From Neelides folsomi (lineage: Eukaryota > Arthropoda > Collembola > Neelipleona > Neelidae): a DNA stretch of 64,000 bases. Below, piece after piece: positions 36,244-64,000 of the stretch. Position 1 is the stretch's first letter. Every line of letters starts with the position of its first letter. The notes under the pieces are model-generated. The model saw only the letters and a list, made by a program, of their open reading frames with translations. It was not told the DNA's origin and did not search any database. The stretch lies in assembly GCA_034687125.1 (NCBI GenBank), contig JAQGBZ010000059.1, positions 62,001 to 126,000 of the forward strand, given 5' to 3'. Made by a program: the position numbers and the translations under genes.

Positions 36244-39200
36244 ATGGAGATTCGTGGGACGAAACAAATCCTCGACTTCCTCCTCAACTCCTACAGGGCC
36301 CGGCTGGCTGTGGACGACGCTGGCAGCGGTTGCCCCTTTGATTTCACCTCCTTCCTCGCTGCCCTTCCTGGGATGAAAAGGGAAGGGACAGCGGGGGTCA
36401 ATGAGGGGCTCAAAGTGATTGTGGACGAAGGACTCCTCGACTCGATTCTTCCATATCTTGCCCTTGCCTTCAGACACACAGTCGAAGAGGAGCCGTCGGT
36501 GACCCCACAACCTCCTGAGCGCCGTCGGGTCAAAGAAGAAGACCCGGACATCCTCATCCACGTGTGCGACGAGGGACGAGGAGCGACAGAGGACTTTCGC
36601 TGCAAGCAGTCCGTCCTCGTTTCTCAAATGGGATACTTCGGGAGGGTGGCTGTGAAAGGTCAGAGGTTGCGTGACATGGACATTTCGGTCCATTGTGATG
36701 TTGCAGTATTTGACTGGCTCATGAAATGGGTTGCTGCTCATTCAAAACAATCTTCTCCACCTCAACTTGGTAACTTTTCCTAATTTCACATTAAAGTTCA
36801 TTAAACACTAACTTATTAAACTCATTACTTATTATTTGTATTATTACGCATTTCAGTCATTTTATTAATTGTATACAATAATTAGTAAATTTCATTTTTT
36901 ATATTGCGTATGATACCATGGTATACTTACCTAGATATGTTATACTATATAATCATTCATCCATTTGATTGTTTATATTTAGATGCTACAAATGTGATCG
37001 GCCTTTTAGTCTCTGCAGACTTTCTTAAAATGCCTGAACTGACGAATGAATGCCTCGACTTTACTATTTTAAATATGGATCAAATTCTCAAGACCTCGCC
37101 TAATCTTGGATGTTTGAGCGAATCTCTTGCCGGCGTCCTCGCCAACCGCCTCGATAACATTGAGTTAGAGACGAAGATCTTCCCATTGGACAAATCTGAT
37201 AGAATAGCGTCCAAGTTTTACACCCAATTTATCCTGGCACTCAATGAAAGTGATCCCGACCCAGGGAGGGGACATTTCGCCTCAACTGCCACATTGTTCC
37301 GGTGCGAGAATTGCGAGCTACTCCTTGTCAATGATGTCGCCCCCAAAGTTCCCTGCACTTCGATGAAATTGGACTCGCGAGGGCGGATCTTCGCTTGTCA
37401 TTCAAAAGACCCAACTTGGACCTTACAATCCCATGTGAGGGATCTGAAGAAAAAGCTCAAAACTTGGAGAAAAGTTTACTGGAGGTGAGAAAGTTTTTTA
37501 GATAATTAAATATTTAAAGTATAAACTATGCAATTACATACATTCCTTCATTAATTAATTCTATATATAATCAATCCGGATAATTTGATTCATTAATACG
37601 ATTCATTATATTTTTCCAGACTTTGGGGCACTGCCCATTTTTTCTCCTGTTCCTTCTGCGGGGTTTATTTCTCTGGCCAGGAGCTGAGTACTTGCGGCTT
37701 TCACCCCAAAGGCTCCCCTTTTTCAAATCCCCCTGAAGAGGTTAAACGAGAAAAACGACTCAAAGGTCCCGACCAAAACATCCGCCTTGTGATGAGCGGA
37801 GGGAAGAAAATGGAAGTTGAGGGTCGGAGGAAACAAACGTCATTTGCCACTTTCTCGTGTTGTGGAGAAAAGGAATTCAGATTTAAACCAATGCCTCATA
37901 ATACGGTATTTAATGCATCATTTAAACATTCTTTCAGTGCTCATATTTTGAAAATCAATGGCCAATTTAAGAATATAGGAATTGAACAATTCGATCGGAT
38001 TAATCATTCAGTTCATTCACAATCCAAAGAGTACATTGGTGAATTGAATTATTTAATCATTATCATTAGTGTAAACAATAGTTTGGTAAATAAAATACCA
38101 TACATTTTGTTATCTCAATCCTTGTTATGGGATTTAACCATTTAACCATAACATAATGACTGGAAAGCTTAATGCTGTTAATACATATTTATCTAACAAT
38201 AAGTACGTAAAACATGTATACTAATGATATGATATAAATATTGTAGTATTACTACCATAGATTTACTTTCTAACATATGGTATGTTACATGTAACAAAAG
38301 TGCGTTGGTGTACTTGTACCAATAAGTCATTATTAAGTCAACCTTTAATACTCGGTTATATAACATTTTTATCTAATTGGACTAATATGATAATAAATGC
38401 AAGGTAATATTAATTATTAATTAGTTCACTTATACCAAAGTGTTTTATAAGTAGGCATATAAAATAAGCACATGAATTTAGGTATGTAAATATGTGTATA
38501 AAATATGCTCAGCTTCAACGAATGAATCCAAGTGAATATATTAATAATATTAAGAGTATAAATTAGTAAATGTACATTTGGGTACATAGAAAGATTGAAG
38601 TAAGTCAAAGTGAATAAGGAAAGTGTTTTTTAAAGTATCTGATTATGCAAAGTTTGGAGTGCAGAATTATTAAATAATTATACTTGAGACTCATTTCGTG
38701 AGATCCATATACCCAAGGGTGTTTTAAATACACTTTTACATAATAAATAATAAATAAGGAAGAAATTTTAAATCAGCCTTTGATTTCGAGAATATCCAAA
38801 TGTTTCTCACTCATATCATTGTAAGAATGTTATACAAGATGAAGTGGAGGAAGGAAATGCCAAAAATAAAATTAAGAGTCTTAATATCAAAATTAGGTTC
38901 ACTCTAATTACAATTAACATAAACAATATCTTATCTATACAATGAACCTTTGTTACTCTTTTTCTTGAGACTACATTAATTTCGGCAAACTGATGAAAGT
39001 AAAGAATGTATATGTACTTAGTACTTATAAGGTACAAATGGAAAGTCTTTACATTTCTAATAAATAGTATATTAATGTACCATGGTATATGTTATCGATT
39101 TCGATTTGTATTGACAGGCATATAAAATATAGTTATTTTGTTAAATATACAGTATTTAAGTAGATGCTTTAATGAACCAGAAGTATGAATCATATTGAAA

Positions 39201-44984: not shown

Positions 44985-47354
44985 ATGAACGGATTTTCAC
45001 GTTTCGGGGATGGGGAGATGATCACAGTCCAATTTGAAAGTGTCTCGGGGACATTGACGGGCGATCCCCTCTACATCTCAACCAACGCCGTGGTTATGGC
45101 ATTGAAGCAAATGTTAAGCGCGATAAACGAGAAGGTAAATTGAAAATGTCTTCTTAAAATTACTCTTGCTCCATTTTAATTTATTTTATTATTTTATTTT
45201 AATATTTTATTAAAATTTATTCCAGCCGGAAACAGATCCATGTAGTTTCTATGTCAACGGGCAGGAGTTGAATCTATGCATTAAAGAAGCTCTAACGGAA
45301 TCCGACCGCTTTGCTGAAAAGACTGTTAAGATCGTATACCAATACAAAGATCTTTTCATTGTTCGCCCAGTTACCCGATGCACTAGGTATTTAAATATCG
45401 ACATTTCCTCAATACATTAGAGATTGGAATTAGATTAATTGTAAATATATTAATTGTATATTGATGTATATGTAAATTAAATTTTTTAACAATCAGCTCG
45501 ATTCCTGGGCATGCGGAAGCAATTGTGTCAGTCGCCTTCTCTCCAGATGGCAAAAGACTTGCCAGTGGCTCAGGAGACACAACGGTCCGATTCTGGGACC
45601 TGGATACCCAGACTCCCCATTTCGCATCCAGGGGTTATAAAAACTATAATTCTAAATGAAATGAAATATTGAATATGTGTGACCAATCATCTATCATATT
45701 TAAAAGTTCCAAATCTCACTTTGATTTTGTTTGTAGGTCACAAAAATTGGGTAATGGTGGTTTCTTGGGACCCCACCGCCACCAAATTGGCATCTGGATG
45801 CAAAAGGGGGGAGATCATTATCTGGGATGCAGTAAGAGGAGTAAAAATCGGGAAAAGTCTTTTGGGCCACAAAAATACGATCAACGCCATTGTGTGGAAA
45901 CCAGCCCACTTGTATTTAAAAACAAATATTAATATTAAAAATTTTAATGTGTAGTGTTTTCAAAATCACACAAATAATTAATAACTTGAATTTTAGGGAC
46001 GGGAAATGCCGCGAAATTGCAAGTTGTTCAAAAGACATGTCTATTCGATTATGGGACGTCGCGATGGGCAATTGCTTAAAAATTTTGTCCGGTCACACCG
46101 CCAGCATAACTTGTTTGAAATGGGGAGGCTCCAACATTTTGTATTCGGGATCCCAGGATCGTACAATTAAAGCTTGGACACCAGTCGACGCAAGTTCCAA
46201 TAATAATTGACCAAATATTTTAAATGTTTTGCTCAATTAACAATTGTTTTAATGGTAAATAGGGTAGACTGATCACTACCTTCACCGGACATTCTCACTG
46301 GGTCAATTCGATTGCTCTCTCAACCGACTATGCAAGCCAATGTGGTCCTTTTGGACCCAAAAACAAATGGTCCATTTCAGAGGCCTCAACAAGTAAATCA
46401 CTGAACTTTATTTGTCACCTATACATAAGTCTCATAAGTCATGGGTATCATAAATAAATGGTATTTATTTCGAAGGCAACGATATTTGGGAAGCTTCCAA
46501 GACTCGTTATGAAGAATTAGTCGACCCTGACGCTGAAGAGAGGCTCGTCTCAGCATCTGACGACCATACACTTTTTCTATGGGCTCCTTCATCCAGGAAG
46601 CCGATAAGTATATAAATTATATACGATATATTTATATTATTATTAAATTTAATATTAGCTTTAAAGTTAAAAAGGATTGATAAAAATTTTAAATTGTATA
46701 TGAACTTAATTGCAATGATCTTGAAAAATGTATTTTTGAACCATTTTAAGCTCGAATGCATGGCCATTATCTGGAAGTCACCGAAGTTAAATATTCCCCT
46801 GACGGATCCTACATCGTTTCTGCGTCGTTCGACAAAGCTGTCAGGATTTGGAATGCGGCGAACGGAAAGTTTGTAACTTTAAATGCCTAATTAATTATAA
46901 TGCAAGTCTGGTTTTATTATAAAGTGTTATTATATATTTTAAGTTCCATCGCTACTTTGAGAGGCCATGTGCAGCGAGTGTATCAAATTTCCTTCTCGCC
47001 CGATTCTAAAATGTTGATCTCAGGCTCGTCAGATTCAACTCTTAAGCGTAATAACTTTTTATTCCAAGGATAATATAAAATGTTATTATTATTATTGTGT
47101 ATTTGCTCAAACTTGTATTTCAACCCAGTATGGAACATGTCGAACTTTAATTTGGAAAGCGACCTTCCTGGGCATGATGATGAAGTATACGCTGTTGACT
47201 GGTCACCTGATGGTCAGGTTGTTGCCTCTGGAGGCAAGGATAAAGTTCTCAAACTGTAATACATTAATATTTAATTACACTTATTATAATATCAATCTAA
47301 ATACTTAATTTACACTTTAAATTTACACATTACTTTTTAAGGTGGAAATATTGA
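44985..47354 (+). CDS. NLE1: Notchless (NLE1), WD40 60S ribosome-assembly factor
   Basis: Nucleolar WD40 protein whose UBL-like N-terminus binds the AAA+ ATPase MDN1/Rea1 during pre-60S maturation; first described as a Notch modulator in fly. Eleven phase-consistent exons: 44985-45134, 45226-45386, 45497-45633, 45737-45911, 45997-46189, 46263-46392, 46476-46607, 46751-46868, 46944-47047, 47129-47255, 47342-47354; 479 residues (human 485). N-terminal domain to about residue 100 ending [14 protein letters not shown], then WD40 repeats: [123 protein letters not shown]. The intron after exon 5 is GC-AG. The last coding exon is only 13 nt (ending LWKY-stop), and a diverged tandem copy of it lies downstream. 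Confidence 0.96.
46190..46262 (+). other. GC-AG intron in NLE1
   Basis: The reading frame goes from WTPVD (ending 46189) to GRLITTF (from 46263), matching the family, only if the intron begins gcaagt and ends atag. A GT donor in this area leaves a stop or shifts frame. gcaagt is the standard context of the minor GC-AG class. Confidence 0.8.
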
Positions 47355-47556
47355 AATTCTCACATGGCGTCCTGTTTAAGCATTGCATTTCAATATTCAA
47401 GACTTGCTACTATATTGTATGAAGTGAAGTGAAATGTGAAAGTGCGTATATATTATATTATCAAATTCTAGCACATTAATGTTTAATTATATTTCAATTT
47501 ATCAATCTAAATACTTAATTTATATTATAAATTTACACATTGCTTTTAGGTGGAGA
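47256..47556 (+). repeat. Tandem duplication of the NLE1 last intron and terminal exon
   Basis: The segment 47256-47345 (starting gtaatacattaatatttaat, containing atcaatctaaatacttaatt, ending ttaaggtgga) recurs in diverged form at about 47468-47552, ending ttttaggtgga. The second copy keeps an acceptor and the first in-frame residues, so it could serve as an alternative terminal exon encoding LWRILICLNDADL-stop instead of LWKY-stop. Confidence 0.8.
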
Positions 47557-48071: not shown

Positions 48072-51000
48072 TTAAGGCGCTATGTAATTGAGGAACTTCA
48101 GGGCTAACTCGAATCCCATAAAACAAGCCGCATTTGCTGGAAAAGCTCGAAGTAACACCGGTGTGGCTCCTTTGTACAACGCTTTCGGCCCTTCGTTCTT
48201 CATCATTTCAGCAAATACATCGCGGACGCCTCGGGGATAAGAACCAGCAGGAGCTAAAAGAAATTTAAAATAATTATTACTAAAAAATACAATATTTTAA
48301 TATCACTAAAATTAAATTATCTCAACAGTGGAGATTTTAATTTTATTGTATATATTCCATTTCAATATTATCTAACATATCGCCATATTTAAAAAATGAA
48401 ATTCCAGGCTTCTTACCAGTTTGAAGTCGACTTTTAATGACGTCTGCTGGCAATGCAACGATCCAATTTAAAATCCCAGCCATCCCTCCAGCAAACAGAG
48501 TTTGGAATGGGCTGAGGGTTTTGGATCCTTCGGGGTTCATGTAATGTTTTAACCACTCGTAAGTCATGAAGTACATCCCACTGGCTGGTACATCTACAAA
48601 ATGACAATTATTAATGGTCTTGCTATACTAAATATTAACTCATTATTTTCTCCTATTCATTAATAAACTGAATATTTAGACTAAAAGTATATAATACTTA
48701 CAAGCATTTTGTCCGCCATATTAGTTAATGAAATATGCAATCTAATATTATATAAGTGTGTACAATGTAAGTGTTATGATATAAATATTGAATGTTATTG
48801 TGAGATGTTTCATACAAAGGTTGTAAGTCTTGTAGGGAAAGATAAAGAAGAGGAAAACGATTTCCGTTGGGGTTCAGTTCATCTTGGAAAGCGATTAAAG
48901 AGAGATGCAATGGAGTTTATTCAACTGTGCATTTTACTCGTTTTAGCAATTCCACTAAAGGTAATAATTGAATTGAAATGCTCGATGGCCACCGGTTTTA
49001 ATTAATTGGAATGTAAAGGTATGGAGTTGCCCATCAGACTGCATTTGTTACAAGGACTCTTTAGCCAATCTGGAATCTTGGCAATGGACGCAAGGAGAAG
49101 AAATTGAAGATGTTCAATTTGTTAATAACGAAGTAAGCTCAATAACATTTACAACTCCAAAGTGGAAATTACGTAAAAATCATCTTAAAACTAAAATATT
49201 AAATCCGATAAAAAATCTAAATTAAATCTATTAAAAAATAGGTAATGCGAAATGTTGAAATCGGTGTAAATCATGAAATTTTAGAAACCGTTACTTGCAT
49301 TATAAGAAGCTCCAATTTGAGTTTTCTGACAAAAATCCCACCAACGACTAAGGTAAGCTCACATGTTATGAATTCCTTGCTTCTAACAATTTAATGTATT
49401 TTACACCATAATTACATTTTATATTTATAAGTACCTACTACAATACATATTATGTGTATATTTAATATTAATGCAAAATAAACTTATGGGCTTTATAAAT
49501 TTTAGATTCTTTCCCTCCTTCAATCTGAAGGGTCAGGAAAGGTGAAATTGAAAAGATCAGATTTGGAATCGTTGAGTTCATTACAAGGACTGAAAGTGCA
49601 AGGAACGTCCAGTGGGGCCTTGTCACTTTTGCCGCTTGAAGGATTGAATTCTCTTCGTTTCCTCACTTTGGAAAACATCATGATTGACTCTTTTTCCAAC
49701 CAAATTCCTCTTGATCATCAATCAACAAAAAAAATACTCGAGAATGAAATTAAGCTGATGGAACCGAAAGAAATCCTTCCCTACAGCGAGTTCAAAAAGA
49801 AGTCCTGGGCCAAATTGGTCTTCAACAACCTTCCCGATTTGGCCCAATTGAGAATTTCCAAGTGTGACATGGGGGAAATGAGTGTAGACATGTTTCACAA
49901 CCTCTCCAGTTTGACCTTCCTCCTTCTGGAAGAAAACGAACTCCATTTCCTCCCCGATTTCCTCTTTTACTCGACCCCGTCCTTGGCACGACTCTCGCTC
50001 TCAAAGAATAAAATCCTTTCCTTGGGCACAGTGGGACTGGCTGGGCTGCTAAGCTTAAAATCCCTAGATATGAGCAGGAACAACATTACACATCTTTCAG
50101 AACTTTCGCTCCCGCCGTTCCCGCTATTGGAAACTGCAGATTTCAGGTTCAATCCCATCGAAACGGTTTTTCCAAATACGTTTGAAGTCATGAATTCTAC
50201 CAAAACTCTGTTGATTGGAGGCCCAGACGTGGCTCTTCGGTTTTATCCTTCTTCTTTTGCTGGCCTGACTTCTCTCCTTCACCTCACTTTGAATAATGTG
50301 GAGATCCCGGGATTGGAAAAAGCCATGCTGGTCGGAATGCCAAATCTTAAATTTTTGAAAATGAATGGGAAGATCAGGAAGATCATATTTGATGCTTTCA
50401 CCGAAGTCCCGAATCTCGAGCGCCTCATTTTAAAAGGCTGTCTAATGAAAAAAATATCAATGGATGGATTTGTCGGACTCAGGAGCCTCCTGACCCTTGA
50501 CCTCTCAAAGAACAAATTGACTTCCCTTCCGCCTGGAATCTTCGATGATCAAACATCCCTAAGAGAATTGTACTTACAGGAAAATCAAATTACGAATTTC
50601 CCTTTCTCCATTTTGATTCTTTCACCTCTGAAGATGGTGAGATTGGATGGGAATCCTTTAGATTGTTCCGCTTGTGACTTTCCTCAATTCAACTCCATCC
50701 TCCATGTGGTCAAACGGGTGGGATTTGAGAAAAACAATTGTTCGTATGAGGAAAAGAATTGTAAGAAATCACACGTCATGAAGGAAACCTACACATTTGA
50801 AAAACGGGTTTCTCCTATCTGCAATTCCCCAATTGAGCTGAAAGGCAAAACGGTTTTCCAACTTGTTCAAAAGCAACTAAATGGAAAATGTTTAAATGCC
50901 ACTGTGAAGGAGCGAATAGAAAAAATTTCAAAAAATTATTCTAGAACGAAAAGTACTACTGCCCAGCCTTTAGTTCACCCATCACCCAACACCGTTCTGC

Positions 51001-52130
51001 TCAACAGGATCGAGATGAAGTTGAAGAAGTTGACCGAAGACGAGGGAAAGCCGCCCAAGGAGACGAAGAACGAAATTCCGCTCAAAACACCGCTCTCCAC
51101 TTCCTTCAATCCTCTGAGTGAAATCGAGAGGGTGGAAAAGAGCCTGAGCTCTGAAAGAACCTTTGACCCTCCACAACCCACCGGAGAAATTAAATTATCC
51201 AAAAAGGCCAAATTAGCCAAATATTGGAAGTTGAAGCAAAAGCTTGAGCAACTCCGAGACTCACCTCTTAAGAGGGTGGCACAGGTGCCTTTGTAAATGC
51301 TTCGAATGCCTCCTTCCCTAATTAATTGAGCACCGCAGTCGATCGGGCCGTTGTATTTAACAGCCGCTCCGCTCCCTTGCTGGACCTAAACAAAATTAAA
51401 ATGTGAAAAATTCTGGAATTTCTTTCTATTAAAATGCCTTTGTTGAATATGTTTTATAAATGTTTTGGTTACTTGGAGCAAGCACTTGATTCTTTCACCG
51501 GGTGTCATTACAATTGTAGTCATCACACCGGAAATCGTCCCTGCGAAAAACATTTGTGTAGCCGAGAGTCGCTGATTTGGAGCGTTTCCACGCCCCACGA
51601 TGTCTTTCCCAACTCCGTAACCGAAAAAGCTGAGGGCAAAAATTGGTGCAACTCCAGCAATTGGTGCAGCCATTCCTGCAAAACACAATAATTATTTTAA
51701 AATCAATAATATGATATATGAAGTTATAATTATATATTATTACATATAATATAGTATAAGATGCATACTACATGATTATATTTATGTGATTTAAAGTACC
51801 TTTATAAAGACCTTTAACGCCTTCATTCTTGATAATTTTTCTGAAGCAATCATAAGTTCCGGCGTACTTTGGCTTGCCATCAACCAGGCTTTGAGTTTGG
51901 AGTCTCACCTGTGCATGTACATGATAAGTGAATACATTAAGACCGGAAATAATAGAAGTAATAATTGTTTGAAAGGCCTTTAAACTTAATTATTTTACAA
52001 TGATAGTGATAAAGTTAATTAGAATGTATTAAACCTTAATTGTATCAAGAGGATGACCAGTAAAGACAAGGCAAACTCCTCCAAAACCACCAGCAAAAAA
52101 GTTCTTAACAGGACTGATCTGTTCACCCAT
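48072..52130 (-). CDS. SLC25A20: Mitochondrial carnitine/acylcarnitine carrier (SLC25A20 type)
   Basis: Inner-membrane antiporter exchanging acylcarnitines for carnitine for fatty-acid oxidation. Six phase-consistent exons: 52130-52035, 51908-51800, 51675-51473, 51385-51265, 48593-48417, 48253-48072; 295 residues (human 301). The three carrier signatures are present: [24 protein letters not shown] and [12 protein letters not shown], each about 100 residues apart. Subfamily blocks: [86 protein letters not shown]. The ATG follows an acceptor-like ttttag, so a 5' UTR intron is likely. The fourth intron (48594-51264) contains an entire LRR gene on the opposite strand, and exon 51385-51265 overlaps the coding end of that gene by 32 bp. 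Confidence 0.96.
48910..51296 (+). CDS. Secreted leucine-rich repeat protein nested in the carnitine carrier gene
   Basis: Four phase-0 exons: 48910-48960, 49019-49132, 49242-49352, 49506-51296; 688 residues. A signal peptide ([17 protein letters not shown]) is followed by an LRRNT-type CPSDCICY, then about 12 LRRs with LxxLxLxxN cores ([77 protein letters not shown]), and an LRRCT from about residue 475 ([10 protein letters not shown], then two Cys in [10 protein letters not shown]). No transmembrane segment is visible; the tail of about 170 residues is polar and Lys-rich, ending in a short helical stretch. It is probably extracellular; I cannot assign an orthologue. It lies antisense inside the fourth intron of the carrier gene. 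If the last long exon is unspliced, its final 32 bp (codons [13 protein letters not shown]) overlap a carrier coding exon; an unseen earlier splice could avoid this. Confidence 0.85.
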
Positions 52131-53600: not shown

Positions 53601-56527
53601 TTTGGGCTGTTTTGGTTGAGCACAATTGACTTTCACCAGGCTCAAGGAACCTGAGCCTGGTGAAAGTGAATTGCATATATGACCTTATATGATGAGATAT
53701 GTGGCAGAGTTCATTGACCCCGACTCCCGACCCTTTACCTTATTAAAGCATTCATTTTGAATTGATCATCTTTTAAAGTTTAATCATATTTCAAATACTT
53801 CTTTTCCTATTCTCAGAATATTTAATTTGATATGGGTCTTTTATTATTTCAGCTGTGTCAAGGAACATTAAGGCCTTCGCGGTCTCGAGGGATGGCTTTT
53901 TTATGTTCTCGCTTATTTATCCCGAGAACAAAAATGTCAAAGAGCTTTTCAAGCGAATAGAAACATTCAACCCCACGGAGAACCCCGAGTAATAAATATC
54001 TTATAATTTATACTCAATTACATATTTGTATTTCTAAAGATTAATTAATAATTTTTGAGGTTTTTAAAGGGTTTTTTAAGTCTAACGAATTGTTATTATA
54101 ATGTATAATAATAACAATTATCATTTGTAAATTTGAAGAAAGCTACACCTGGTCAGTCAACTTGAAGGCGAAGAGGTTGTTATTCTCGTTAAGACTTTCC
54201 TTGGTTTTACCAAGATGATGGAAAGATTGATGGAACATTTATCGCTAAATATTGATCCAACTAACAAGTAATTTAGAACACATTCTTGGTCACTTATAAT
54301 AAAAATTCATGAAATGGTGATATTTATTACTAATTGATTGCATATAATTAAATTATGGTTATATTATAGAAACGATGATACCACCGATGTCTTGCTTTCG
54401 AAGTTTTTTGAACATATCGGGTTCTTGGCAGATCTGCTCCATGATTTTGGAGGTTATCAACACCTTGGTTGCCATCAAAAAACGATTGACGAATTTAAGG
54501 GAGTTGACATGCTCGTCAAATCAATCTTGTCCGATTTGAGAAAGCCCGTTGATGTTTTCAACTGGACATTGAAGTGGAAAAGATTTCAAGTGATAATTTT
54601 AAAAATATTTTAATTTATTGAATTTCCCTAAATACAGTGTTGATAATATTTTTAACAATGCAATAAATACCATTTATTTAGATATACAACAATAAAAATT
54701 TATTTTTCGCAATTAAATAACTGAAATTATAATTTTACTTTCTTTTAGTTCCTCAATGAAGTTTTGAGCATGAAGATAATCCACTTTGTGTTCGTACATG
54801 TAGTATCTCTGGGATTATACATCCAAAGGAGCGGATCTCAAAAGCATGCCCTCAAATCTTGGACCGATATTACCGAGATCCACAATGTTTTAGTAAAGGT
54901 TGCGGATTCCGAGCAAACACTCCGCCAACATATCGATGAGTAAAATACAATATAAAATACAATGGTTTATATTTTATAATCATGATTGGAATGGAAATTG
55001 GCCATTATTATTTAAAATACTTTCCTATTAAGTTTATTATTAATACTAATACAATTGTTATATCAGTACTTTGAAAAACATTACATTTACAAACCAGATA
55101 ATATTGTTGTTATATGTTTATTAGCATGATTAAGAAGCAGGAAGAGATTTTGGGTAAAATTGCCAAGGTCCGAAAACGCTTCACTCGGCAGAATGAACTC
55201 TATGTAAACCACCACTTCTTGCTTGCCTCGACCCAAGACCTTATTGACACGTTTGCTCGACTCCAGACATACTTGGTGAAACTGAATGTTTCACCACCCA
55301 ACCAAAGTTATACTTGGAGCACACTTACCTATCAAACTATTCTATCATTGAAAAGTATGGCTGTGGAGCAAATGAAGAATTTCGAACGGGTCTGTAATTA
55401 CCATTGCCTTCTTCTTGGGGTTGCTGTCAAGCCGCCTGAGACCAAGCACATTGAAGTGTCGTTGCCTCCAGAATTTGTTGTCCGAGCGAGCAACCCCAAC
55501 TTGAGCCCAAATCTTGACAATCCCGCCAATGCCCACGCGGGAGCCTTTGGAGATTTTGAAGAAAGTGTTGGTCAGATTAGGGATTATGTCCCACAAGAGC
55601 GTCGAGACGAAGTTTTTACTCTTGAGCCCGGCGATCGAGCAGAAGAGCCGACCACTTCAACACCGACCACTTCTGCTTATGACATTGACCCAAATTTGGT
55701 GTCCTCAATGAACGTCTTGTTTCTCCAACTCAAGGAAAAACTTGAGCCCATTTATAATGCCACACTGGAAAGAGAAAAGGAGGCAGGAGCAGAAAGACGC
55801 CGGTTTATATACCTTGGACAGGCAGGAGTGGATAGAGCTAGGTTTTACACCAGCCTGGCGAATTTAAGGGCTGAAACTGAAGCTGAAGCTGCGACTACTA
55901 CATGTGAGCATCCGAGTGTTCCTGAAACACCAAGTGATATTGATGAGGAGACGCTTTTATTATTTGAAGGACTTCCTCTTGGTTTCGGTAAATGAGCGTA
56001 TTCGTTAAAAAACTATTAAAAACTTAGTTATTTTAAATATATATTATATTAATTGTTTTAACGGATATTATTATTTAAAGTAAAATTAAAGGTTGGAAGT
56101 TTATTTAGCGATATTTTTGTGATATTTTTAAGCTGATCTGGCCTTCGTCAAGGCAGCCGGGAAGTTGCGCCAAGGTGAAGAAGACACCTACGGGGACAGT
56201 GATAGCGACAGTGATGACAGCGAGGAAGAAGAAACCATCAGGATTGATGAGGGTGAGGGCGGTGAAGCCATGAACAATCATGACAGTGGGGGCGGTGATG
56301 CTATGAACAATCAAGCGAGTGAGAACAGAGAAGCCATGAGCAACCATGAGAGTGCAGAAAATGCTTCATCTGATGTACACTTCCCCGATTCTGGCAGCAA
56401 TGTGAGCGAGCTTGCGGAGATAAGGGAACTGTTTGATTTCGACGTCGATATTTCGGATTTTCTCGCCAGCCATCTCGGTAGAGGTCTATTTGAGGAAGAA
56501 GAAGGTGAATTTGACGATAGAATGTGA
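53084..56527 (+). CDS. Unrecognised protein with two alternative first exons
   Basis: Alternative first exons 53084-53093 (ATGAAGACC-G) and 53560-53563 (ATG-G) both end in phase 1 with gtgagt donors and can each join 53853-53988, then 54139-54267, 54370-54589, 54749-54939, 55125-55987, 56133-56527. The downstream form has 645 residues and starts MAVSRNIKAFAVS; the upstream form starts MKTAVSRN. I do not recognise the family. Residues 1-300 are mostly helical (LVKTFLGFTKMMERLMEHL, KKQEEILGKIAKVRKRFTRQ); about 172-188 are strongly hydrophobic (IIHFVFVHVVSLGLY) and could be a membrane or buried helix. A Thr/Pro/Glu-rich linker follows. The last exon is very acidic, with a DSDSDSDDSEEEE run and three imperfect EAMNNH-like units. 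Phases agree at every junction, so it is a real gene. AATAAA is at 56674-56679. Confidence 0.8.
53623..53673. repeat. 22-bp inverted repeat with a 7-nt loop (strong hairpin)
   Basis: The arm 53623-53644 (caattgactttcaccaggct plus ca) pairs with 53652-53673 with a single mismatch, around the loop aggaacc. It lies in the first intron of the unrecognised gene, 60 nt downstream of the second first-exon. The stem is GC-rich relative to its surroundings. It is shorter than a typical miRNA precursor stem, so its nature (small RNA, regulatory hairpin or mobile remnant) is open. Confidence 0.85.
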
Positions 56528-59500: not shown

Positions 59501-61358
59501 TGGATCATTCATAAAATATACATGTTTCAAAATGTGTGTAAAGAGTATGGATGTGGAAAGCGCGTATGGTATTTATTCTATTGCGGTTGAACGGAGAAAC
59601 TTGAGAGTTAATAACGGTGTGATGAATGTTAATTAAGGAGAGCCGATCCCATTAGGAAGAATTGGCGAGGTGAAGCGAGGAGATGGGAGAAAATCTTCAT
59701 TGATTTTCACTTGATCTGTGAGTTTTCCCATATGGAGGGGATTTCCTCGCTGCTCCACAGCTCCCTTTATCATCTTCGAGTGTGGAAGTCAGAAAGATTG
59801 GTATCAGCGGTTAAATGTAATTTTGCCCTCAAATCTCATTCAATCTCCCCTACAAGAAAAGAAAATGGAGAAGGGATGATTGACAAAATATTATTGCGAG
59901 GAGGCATATCAATAAATCAATACGGAGCATAATAAATCTGGTAAAGATATCAGAGTCTTGCCATAATACATAGCAAGAGTGCAAACAGAACTCAAAAATC
60001 TAAAATTCTTGTAAAACTGGTCAATTAAAAAGCGGGTGGGTTTTAAAGGCCAGACATTAAAGAGAAATAATGAATCGAGGAGGGAAATGACTGGCGATGA
60101 GTTATAAAGAAAATGATGAAGTCTCATGAATGTTGAGTTGAATAAAAGGAAAAATCGGGTCTGAAGGGAGAAGGTGGGAGGAATGGAGTTGACAGGGATT
60201 TAAAGCTGCTCCTGATTTCCATAAGCCCCTTCACCCCTGACGAGCCGCGAAGGTCTTTTGGGCCGCATTTCCTCGAGAGGTAATTAGGTTAGATGAGGAA
60301 AGGAAGTGTGATGATAATGGAGATTGATCTATTAGCCTCTCATTTAACCCTCCCCGACTCCATCAATGAGAGATCTTGTTTGTCAAACCCACGCGTCCCC
60401 TCAAATATTCCTCTTAATAAAGATATGACAAATTTGTCCCCCCGACTCCCCGCACAAAGCCATTAATCCGACTAACCGGCCACAATCCCCAAACTCCAAA
60501 ACTACATGTGTAAATCCATTTCTCCCCAATCAACAATGGGTGAGAGAGATGGATTGGAAATGGAAATGGTTTATTAACCGCATTATGCCTTCAGCCTTCC
60601 TATTAAGATCATACAGAAGGACTTTTGTCAAACATCACCACTTTTGTCCCATATTTGTCAAAGATTATTGTTGAGAATAATGCTCATGAATACTGTGTAC
60701 TTACTATACTGTAGTACTATACTGTACGTTCATACTTGCAAATTTCATATATTACAGATATGTACATATTTCTTTCTAAATGTAAGTGTACAATCTTTTA
60801 CTTTTGATCCTTACTTACTCTACAGCAACTTAAGCTAATGCTACTTTAACTAGTACAGATAATACCTGGTGTCTAGTTTGATAAATGGATAATTTATATA
60901 ATTATTGATCATGTATGCTATTGATTTTAAATCATTTTATGGTTTCAGTAAAAGGATTTTCCACATTTTTCCTCATAAATAATCTTTACATTGTGAATTG
61001 AACATTAAGGGCATTAAGGTATTAAAGTATTGGGGATCAAGGATAAAAAAGAGCTTCGAATGGGTTAATCTTTTTCTAAAATATCTTGAGGCAAAAGAGG
61101 AAACGCGGTGAAAAGAAAACTTTTTTCTATTCATTCGTGGATTTCATCTTAGGATTCCAAAACTACTAAACATAATATCAATGTTCGTAAATGTATTAAA
61201 ATGTATCAAAAACATGGCATAATTTGTAATATGAAATTTTAAAAGTTGTAGTTATTAAATGTCTAATATGAAAATATAGATAAATAATTATTTCTGTCGA
61301 ATATGTCCAAATATTTTAATACAATTTCATTAATTTTACATAAAATGTTTGAAATGAG
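56528..61358. other. Gene-poor intergenic region upstream of the FEZF 3' end
   Basis: About 4.8 kb between the unrecognised gene and the 3' end of the FEZF-type gene. Open frames of 124 codons (56876-57250, minus) and 168 codons (59130-59636, plus) occur but show no family motif, no signal peptide and no paired splice sites. Most of the rest is AT-rich. Distal regulatory DNA for the developmental FEZF gene is plausible but not visible. Confidence 0.45.
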
Positions 61359-62532
61359 CTAAGAAAAGCTGTTGTGTATCTGCGCTTGGTGGAGGAGAAA
61401 CGGCGAGAACAAATTTTGAGGTTGGAGCTGCGGGGCGGAAGACTTCGTGGGCGAAGTGAATGGAATTTGCGGGGAGTGGGGAGAGTCAGTGGGACGATGG
61501 TCATGGAGTTTCCGCATGTGCTTCTTAAGGTCAAAGTTCCTGCAGAAGCCCTTGCCACACGCCTTGCACGTGAACGGTTTCTTCTCGTTGTGGGTGTGCA
61601 TGTGGAAGGTCAAGTTGTAGATCTGGTGGAAGGCCTTGTTGCAGATGCTGCATTTGTAGGCCTTGTCCCCGCTGTGGGTCAACTTGTGATTTTTGTAATT
61701 GCCTTTCTGGTGAAAGCCCTTGCCGCAGAACTCGCAGACAAAGGGTTTGAACCCGTCATGTATCCGAATGTGGGTGTTGAGGGTGGAGCTCCGGTTGAAG
61801 GCCTTCCCACACGTCCCGCATTTGTGAGGCTTCTCCGACGTGTGGATGATTTTGTGCCGGCAGAGGGTCGAGGCCTGGCGAAACCCCTTCCCGCACACCT
61901 TACACACAAACGGCCGAGCCCCAGTGTGGACGGGCATATGGCGGGTGAGGTTGTAGTGGGCATTGAACACCTTCCCGCACTCGGAACATGTAAAAGACTT
62001 GCTCTTGCTCACCGGGGGCTCCTTTTGCTCCTCCTCCTTCTCCGACTTCTCCCGCCCCCGACAGGGTTTCCCCCGAGGTTCGGCCTTTCCTTGGGGCCGA
62101 GTGGGAGGCTCGGCGGTGGTGAGTCCGGAGTTCCTGGCGGGGGCTGCCAGGTGGGCCTTGGCCGCACTGATGTAGGCCGCGTAGAGCGGTGAAAAACCTG
62201 TGTGGGTCGGAGGGTCGAACCCGGTGAGGTATGGTGGATAGTAGACGAGCGGGTATTGGCGGAGGATCTCTCCCGTCCCGACGGCATAGTTGGCAGAGCT
62301 GATCACATCCCTGGGAACATACTTCCTGAAGGCCGAGTCTTCCGCTTTGCTTTGGAGTGCACTTGTGGGGATCTTCGGGGCCTCCATGATCTTGGCAATG
62401 GAGAAGGTGAGAAGAGACCGAGGTTTTTTGACCTCATCGTGGGGAAGATCCGCTTCGCCCCGGGGCGGTGCCCGATTGTCAATCATGGGAGAGATCAAGT
62501 TGTTGATCGGCTGCATTTTAATCCTCCCGTCC
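61359..62532 (-). CDS. FEZF: FEZF-type zinc-finger transcription factor (Fez/earmuff family)
   Basis: Nuclear repressor of forebrain and neural progenitor fate; the fly orthologue is earmuff. The exon runs from an acceptor (tttgtgcag, exon from 62532) to TAG at 61361-61359; the first ATG inside is at 62516, giving 385 residues. An Eh1 Groucho-binding motif ([10 protein letters not shown]) lies at residues 36-45, as in FEZF proteins. A linker rich in charged residues and proline precedes six contiguous C2H2 fingers from about residue 175 to 340: [95 protein letters not shown] and [19 protein letters not shown], all with intact Cys and His and nearly identical to vertebrate FEZF1/2. The whole finger block is in one exon. 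The frame is open from the acceptor, so an upstream coding exon could exist; I prefer a 5' UTR exon because Eh1 is already near the start. Confidence 0.94.
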
Positions 62533-64000
62533 CTGCACAAAGAAAAGGAGTTAAATGGGGACTAAAACACACCGCCATTCAAATTAAAATCCCCCTTCGT
62601 AACAGGCGGCAAAAGGAGGACTTAATGGGCTTAAGGCAAATGGAGATGAAATCAATGGCCTTTCACGACGTATCTCGCCGTTCACAACCCAAGCTGTTCA
62701 CAACCCAAACTTTCTTTCATTTCTCGATAACATGCGAATTGGGTGAGTGTTGATTATGTGAATATGCACGAGGAGAGTTAAAAAGAGAGTAATAGTCACG
62801 ATTGCTCAACACGCCTCCTCATTTCCACGAAGGAAATTGACATTTGAGCAAACACCGATGACAATTATGAGAAAGTAAATTCACCATCCCCCAGAGATTT
62901 AAAGCCCCTATTTCCATTTTCCCTATTCTTTCCACCAGTCCCTTTTTATTTCATCAATGGTCCAAGTGGCTATTATATCATCCAAACAATATGATCAACT
63001 GCCTACTTCCATCTTTCAACATTATTGGTATTCACTCTAAAATCCATTCCAAATGAGAAACATTATCACAATCGAAAACATCATTCCTATCCACTTTGAT
63101 CAACTTTTGAATGCGTTTACGATGAGAACGATTACATAAATTATTTACAGCTGACTGAATGTAAAATTATGAATATATGACAACTTGGATATAGCTAAAC
63201 TATGAATATTGGCAGTATTAACTAAATTCATCCATTAATAAATAAAATAATTAGTTTTGATTATTTAAATAAAAATTAACGATAAACCTGATCGTTAAAG
63301 ATTTGTGAGTATTTTTTTACTTGTTAGACCAATAAGCATAACCTGTCTTTAAATTCAATAATGATTTATTGGGTATCAATCGATTGGGTCGTTCTGAAAA
63401 GCACCGTTTGTCCATTATTTTAAACCGAATAAATTCCTAATTAACTCCTCGTTAGACCGTCGTGTCCCACGGGTGTCATGTAACTATTTCCCGTCTCCAA
63501 ATACTTCCTATTTAAGTACCAGTGAGTTATGGTCAGTAAAAAAGGAGCTGCGGAATCCGTACAATGTTAATTGTAAATTAGAGAGAGGTTGTAAAATCCC
63601 TAACGTGTCTCCTTGTGGGAAATGAGCGGGAGCATGGAATGTTTGCAGAAGTGGACACCAATAAAGAAAAAGTTTTAAAATTAAATGCCTCCTCCGATCC
63701 ATCGCGAATTAGAAATGTAATGACTGTCTGTCTGTTGGGGTTGGGAAGAACAAATGAGGAACAAAGTATTGATTAAAGTAGAGTCATTAAAAAACCTCCC
63801 CACCGAGTAAGGTGAAGAAATCTTCATTTTACGAGGGCCGTTCAGAAGTGGGAGAGTCGAGAACGGGATAATCGGATTCCTCATCGGGAAAGGGGGAATG
63901 AACGCCGTTCACACCTGTGCATTTCATCAGGAGGGATTCGTTCTGGTGACTCAACAGCCTCCACGGCCCGATCGAGGGAAAAGGAATTAATCAATTTTAT
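62533..64000. other. Upstream of FEZF, no gene seen
   Basis: About 1.5 kb to the window edge. The region next to 62532 is the first intron or promoter of the FEZF-type gene; the rest is AT-rich. No coding exon or RNA gene could be supported. Confidence 0.5.

Follow-up and report, generated by a model that had tools for sequence, protein, structure and literature searches.

The analysed window is a 64,000-nucleotide stretch of the genome of the collembolan Neelides folsomi (assembly GCA_034687125.1, contig JAQGBZ010000059.1, positions 62,001 to 126,000 of the forward strand), and all coordinates below refer to it. Two predicted protein genes occupy opposite strands of the same DNA. The gene model on the minus strand is an SLC25-type mitochondrial carrier of six exons and 295 amino acids, with GT/AG boundaries at all introns, while that on the plus strand is an LRR gene of four exons and 688 amino acids. 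Their features are as follows.

52035-52130, minus strand: carrier exon 1 (gene model), running up to HPLDTIK and ending at a GT donor
51800-51908, minus strand: carrier exon 2 (gene model), AG before and GT after
51473-51675, minus strand: carrier exon 3 (gene model), AG before and GT after, containing TPGERIK
51265-51385, minus strand: carrier exon 4, AG before and GTGAGT after, opening with VQQGSG and ending with the first base of an Asp codon
48594-51264, minus strand: carrier intron 4, 2,671 bp, containing nearly the whole LRR gene
48417-48593, minus strand: carrier exon 5 (gene model), AG before and GT after
48072-48253, minus strand: carrier exon 6 (gene model), including the stop codon
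48910-48960, plus strand: LRR gene exon 1 (gene model and hydropathy), 17 residues resembling a signal peptide
49019-49132, plus strand: LRR gene exon 2, AG before and GT after, with the cysteine-bearing segment CPSDCIC
49242-49352, plus strand: LRR gene exon 3 (gene model), AG before and GT after
49506-51296, plus strand: LRR gene exon 4, with LRR repeats, cysteines and a basic tail of about 169 amino acids, ending in the stop codon TAA at 51294-51296
51265-51296, both strands: shared stretch, in which the LRR C-terminus and stop lie opposite ten carrier residues (from the phase table and codons)
51428-51433, plus strand: candidate poly(A) signal of the LRR gene, ATTAAA followed by a GT-rich stretch, within carrier intron 3 (consensus match only)

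The assignment of the minus-strand gene to the SLC25 family is based on domain matches and on sequence motifs. In a scan of this genome, four Mito_carr (PF00153) matches above the cut-off were found at the carrier locus; exon 4 by itself matched with an E value of 5.4e-6, and the exon 6 region (48072-48296) with 1.5e-12. Inspection of the translation by eye identified three PX[DE]XX[KR] repeats (HPLDTIK, TPGERIK, and LPADVIK), a motif which we take to be the signature of SLC25 proteins. The ten solved structures matched by the carrier are ADP/ATP carriers, uncoupling proteins, a GTP/GDP carrier, and 2-oxoglutarate/malate carriers. From its presumed likeness to SLC25A20 (carnitine/acylcarnitine carrier), the protein is probably of the carnitine/acylcarnitine type. 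At 2,671 bp intron 4 is an outlier, since the other carrier introns measure 126, 124, 87, and 163 bp. A second close copy of the carrier, one without an LRR gene, was sought in the 75.1-Mb, 840-contig assembly and was not found; the matches to the carrier above 40% identity were its own six exons and one piece of 51 residues at 41%. The assembly also contains 39 matches to the RR cuticle domain (Chitin_bind_4), which points to an arthropod, and none to the intradiol dioxygenase family, a marker of spider mites.

The plus-strand gene contains eight stretches matching LRR_8 above the Pfam cut-off (E 1e-39, 134.5 bits). The cysteine-bearing segment CPSDCIC of exon 2 and the cysteines of exon 4 resemble N-terminal and C-terminal caps, respectively. 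In a plain hydropathy scan, the top four of all 19-residue windows start at residues 1-4, making the N-terminus the most hydrophobic stretch; the predicted product is probably secreted. Among the best 60 of 264 solved-structure matches are LGR5, the acid-labile subunit, and Toll-like receptors. The introns are short (58, 109, and 153 bp), and an alternative, shorter end of exon 2 at 49120 also keeps the frame and leaves the C-terminal end unaffected. The last 169 residues form a basic tail, with 34 K+R vs 18 D+E. A close paralogue by which the conservation of this tail could be judged was not found in the assembly, where only LRR-repeat similarity occurs elsewhere. The last LRR exon matched itself and 29 other places at no more than 49% identity, none of them extending beyond query residue 423 into the tail. 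Structure prediction for this exon without an alignment gave a mean pLDDT of 34 and is uninformative about the tail.

An earlier note on this DNA had described a complete LRR gene lying antisense in a carrier intron, with the coding ends of the two genes overlapping, and the sequence models of both genes agree with that description. In these predicted models the bases 51265-51296 are coding on both strands, which makes this a bidirectional coding overlap. Two details of the description need adjustment. The LRR gene was said to be complete within the fourth intron; nearly all of it does lie there, but its reading frame leaves the intron and stops at 51296 in exon 4. Likewise, of what were called its last 32 coding bases, all 32 are shared, but only 29 are sense-coding and three form the stop codon, the LRR frame thus running ten codons into exon 4. 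A strictly nested gene lies wholly within a host intron (PMC2330155). With a frame ending 32 bases inside exon 4 the LRR gene falls outside this definition, and in the terms of that source it comes nearer to an embedded antiparallel arrangement (PMC2330155).

Opposite-strand coding overlaps had also been called rare in animals, and the literature bears this out. Among 13,484 orthologue pairs surveyed, 51 of 615 different-strand overlaps in human and 28 of 497 in mouse involved coding sequence on both strands (PMC2335118), and in FlyBase in 2015 a single opposite-strand CDS overlap was given, that of CG34148 and P5CDh2 (PMC4528330). Overlaps involving coding sequence are described as underrepresented in five metazoan genomes (PMC2330155). 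Nested genes are estimated at about 6% of Drosophila genes (PMC3786989).

Rarity as a class does not make this overlap remarkable in itself, as had been supposed, and the reason lies in its register. The LRR and carrier frames share their third codon positions, and the first position of each frame lies opposite the second position of the other. In this wobble-to-wobble register the genetic code permits a stop on the opposite strand only at a Tyr codon preceded by a codon with C or T in third position, or at a His or Gln codon preceded by one with T there. Read inward from the splice donor of carrier exon 4, the sequence first allows such a stop at the Ile-Tyr of the I-Y-K-G (IYKG) motif. When exon 4 was recoded synonymously 20,000 times with the codon usage of the same genome, the first stop in the LRR frame fell at base 32 in 17,827 recodings and earlier in none. 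It fell later in 1,149 (at base 65 in 668 and at base 119 in 481) and was absent in 1,024. The length of 32 bases is therefore what the carrier protein forces on most open frames that enter in this register, and it is the default outcome for an LRR frame that reaches the exon edge without a stop.

Openness over such a distance is common as well. Twelve coding sequences of this genome were read on their opposite strand in this register, and for 73% of 5,529 entry points the first stop lay at least 30 bases in; runs that reached the end of their training frame stopless were left out of this count, and adjacent entry points depend on one another. The figures for the other two registers were 75% and 57%. 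Every entry point was placed at a codon edge, but the end of carrier exon 4 falls after the first base of a codon. The codon-usage training set comprised 11 long open frames (7,634 codons) from LRR and carrier loci of the same genome, taken uncurated from stop to stop; for both the recoding and the opposite-strand stop counts it was extended by the coding sequence of the carrier itself. As such, the overlap does not exceed what chance would give, and it calls for no function or special explanation.

A second question is whether the LRR frame is coding up to the edge of the carrier exon. It is open from 49506 through to the TAA at 51294-51296. In 5,000 dinucleotide shuffles, the 161 codons at 50811-51293, which include the 29 shared bases, stayed open just once, and for this reason the LRR frame is probably coding as far as the edge of exon 4. 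The remaining two plus-strand frames contain seven and five stops within 51000-51264. By codon score, the LRR frame tops the three plus-strand frames in all 15 windows between 49506 and 51335, albeit weakly in the tail. Its scores are positive across the LRR domain and near zero in the tail, with values of -0.10 in both of the tail windows 50826-50975 and 51186-51335. Moreover, a minus-strand frame outscores the LRR frame in two windows, namely 51066-51215 (0.26 vs 0.14) and 51186-51335, which is partly carrier exon (0.07 vs -0.10). Given these low tail scores and the higher minus-strand values, coding in the tail falls short of proof.

Opposite this tail, the frame of carrier exon 4 runs open for 290 bases beyond its donor (50975-51385, minus strand; 136 amino acids in total). 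This open frame in the intron is probably a shadow of the LRR codons. Retention of intron 4 would yield a long read-through carrier product.

Taken together, the carrier/LRR arrangement is probably real and ordinary, as judged from the gene models. We put the probability at roughly 0.7 that the locus holds two ordinary protein genes on opposite strands, the LRR frame passively reading on to the first stop that the carrier permits in exon 4. The LRR introns and nearly all of the LRR coding sequence would then lie inside carrier intron 4, as would the LRR promoter. The LRR frame meets no stop ahead of the intron edge and so continues into exon 4 as far as the Ile-Tyr of IYKG. The frame may once have ended within the intron and then lost its stop, or may have drifted to its present end. 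The last ten LRR residues would have no function of their own, and the mRNA would end near 51445, in carrier intron 3.

The placement of this end derives from a scan of the plus strand for ten poly(A)-like hexamers at 50500-51800, by consensus match only. The scan returned AAGAAA at 50763, ATTAAA at 51189, 51395, and 51428, TATAAA at 51455, and AATATA at 51748. None of the ten types occurs between the LRR stop and carrier intron 3; those at 51395, 51428, and 51455 are within intron 3, and AATATA at 51748 is within carrier intron 2. Since the nearest hexamers after the stop lie in intron 3, the LRR mRNA probably spans exon 4, and if one of the hexamers beyond the stop is used it would cross the exon in its entirety.

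It is also conceivable that the LRR transcript is spliced or ended before carrier exon 4. There would then be no coding-on-coding overlap, and the open frame would be a chance extension. The weak codon score of the tail and the higher minus-strand frame in two windows are in line with such an early exit, as is the frequency with which chance leaves an opposite strand open for at least 30 bases. In addition, the ATTAAA at 51189 lies within the tail and could terminate transcripts earlier. An end near 51189, however, would leave the LRR frame stopless, because the first stop of that frame is at 51294. Splicing fares no better, as from 50800 to the overlap no donor-like site exceeds 5 of 9 consensus positions. 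This argument is not exclusive, for the eight donors of the LRR and carrier models score 5 to 8 of 9, one of them scoring 5. A convincing earlier exit from the LRR frame was not found among the donors at 50800-51300 or the ten hexamer types at 50500-51800, and we consider an early exit unlikely.

The best donor-like site at 50800-51300 is CAG|GTGCCT at 51285, which lies inside the overlap and agrees with 7 of 9 consensus positions, equal to several of the real donors and above all other sites in that interval (at most 5). Were the LRR transcript to use it and splice onward, the protein would have another C-terminus, and carrier coding bases would still be overlapped. Acceptor-like sites are available downstream at 51364, 51479, and 51520, each with 9 of 15 pyrimidines. 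These sites equal or exceed the three acceptors of the LRR gene (6, 6, and 9) and fall below four of the five carrier acceptors (8 to 12). As their pyrimidine content is no lower than that of the LRR gene's acceptors, a splice at 51285 would be feasible. Nevertheless, an in-frame stop lies 9 bases past the donor, so that the frame would end without splicing, and inspection by eye revealed no additional LRR exon. We regard the use of this donor as quite improbable.

The overlap could alternatively be a selected regulatory device, in which antisense LRR RNA over exon 4 influences the splicing of the carrier or gives rise to double-stranded RNA. The probable overlap of the mRNA with the whole of exon 4, with no scanned hexamer between the LRR stop and intron 3, would suit such a role, but the geometry is accounted for without selection, and the proposal is highly improbable. 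A further, highly improbable suggestion is that the LRR messenger spans the whole of exon 4 and that the wobble-locked overlap is retained for coupling a secreted LRR protein to the splicing or dosage of the carrier.

For this arrangement, known systems offer partial parallels, each described here as far as the available text of its source goes. In Drosophila, 2mit resembles the present gene in encoding an LRR protein from the strand opposite to its host, in an intron of a gene unrelated to it (intron 11 of timeless2, tim2). Unlike the present gene, 2mit encodes a transmembrane receptor and is described as lying within the intron, and a shared host coding exon is not mentioned in that text (PMC3786989). 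LRRTM1-3 in the introns of vertebrate alpha-catenin (CTNNA) genes are likewise LRR genes opposite the host strand; they differ in that the host introns are very large and the proteins transmembrane, with coding overlap not mentioned in the text available (PMC3933685). The same source states that most nested pairs with a lost partner comprise LRR domains (PMC3933685). TRalpha2 and Rev-erbalpha share with the present pair a bidirectional coding overlap between two opposite-strand genes, but that overlap is described as present in all eutherian species and is tied to an alternative isoform, whereas the one reported here is known from the models of one genome (PMC3047299). CG34148 and P5CDh2 represent, as here, an opposite-strand coding overlap in an arthropod, whose extent and arrangement are not stated in the consulted part of the source (PMC4528330).

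Literature searches showed no report of this carrier/LRR pair among the titles listed, which is no proof of its absence from print. The pair adds one predicted arthropod case to a short list of opposite-strand coding overlaps. The end of its overlap has a simple cause, in that the register is wobble to wobble and a host tyrosine codon supplies the neighbour's stop. Above all, the case is a warning that gene models may contain short coding overlaps of passive origin.

Several other features were observed in the window. A 297-amino-acid open frame at 55102-55995 (plus strand) appears to be part of a multi-exon gene and has no Pfam match at 0.01. A gene at 36244-37485 (plus strand) has the type of BTB domain seen in the SANT and BTB regulator family, matched at 36244-36780 (E 3e-16). 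The frame at 61359-62561 (minus strand) has five zf-C2H2 stretches and resembles a Fez-family factor; the 279-amino-acid open frame opposite it (61353-62192, plus strand) is an example of long antisense openness in this DNA. Lastly, a 48-base direct repeat (47290-47337 and 47500-47547, plus strand; 92% identity, spacing 210) lies just upstream of what may be two short last exons in a WD40-like gene, which we take to be Notchless-like, and the terminal exon of this gene has perhaps been duplicated.
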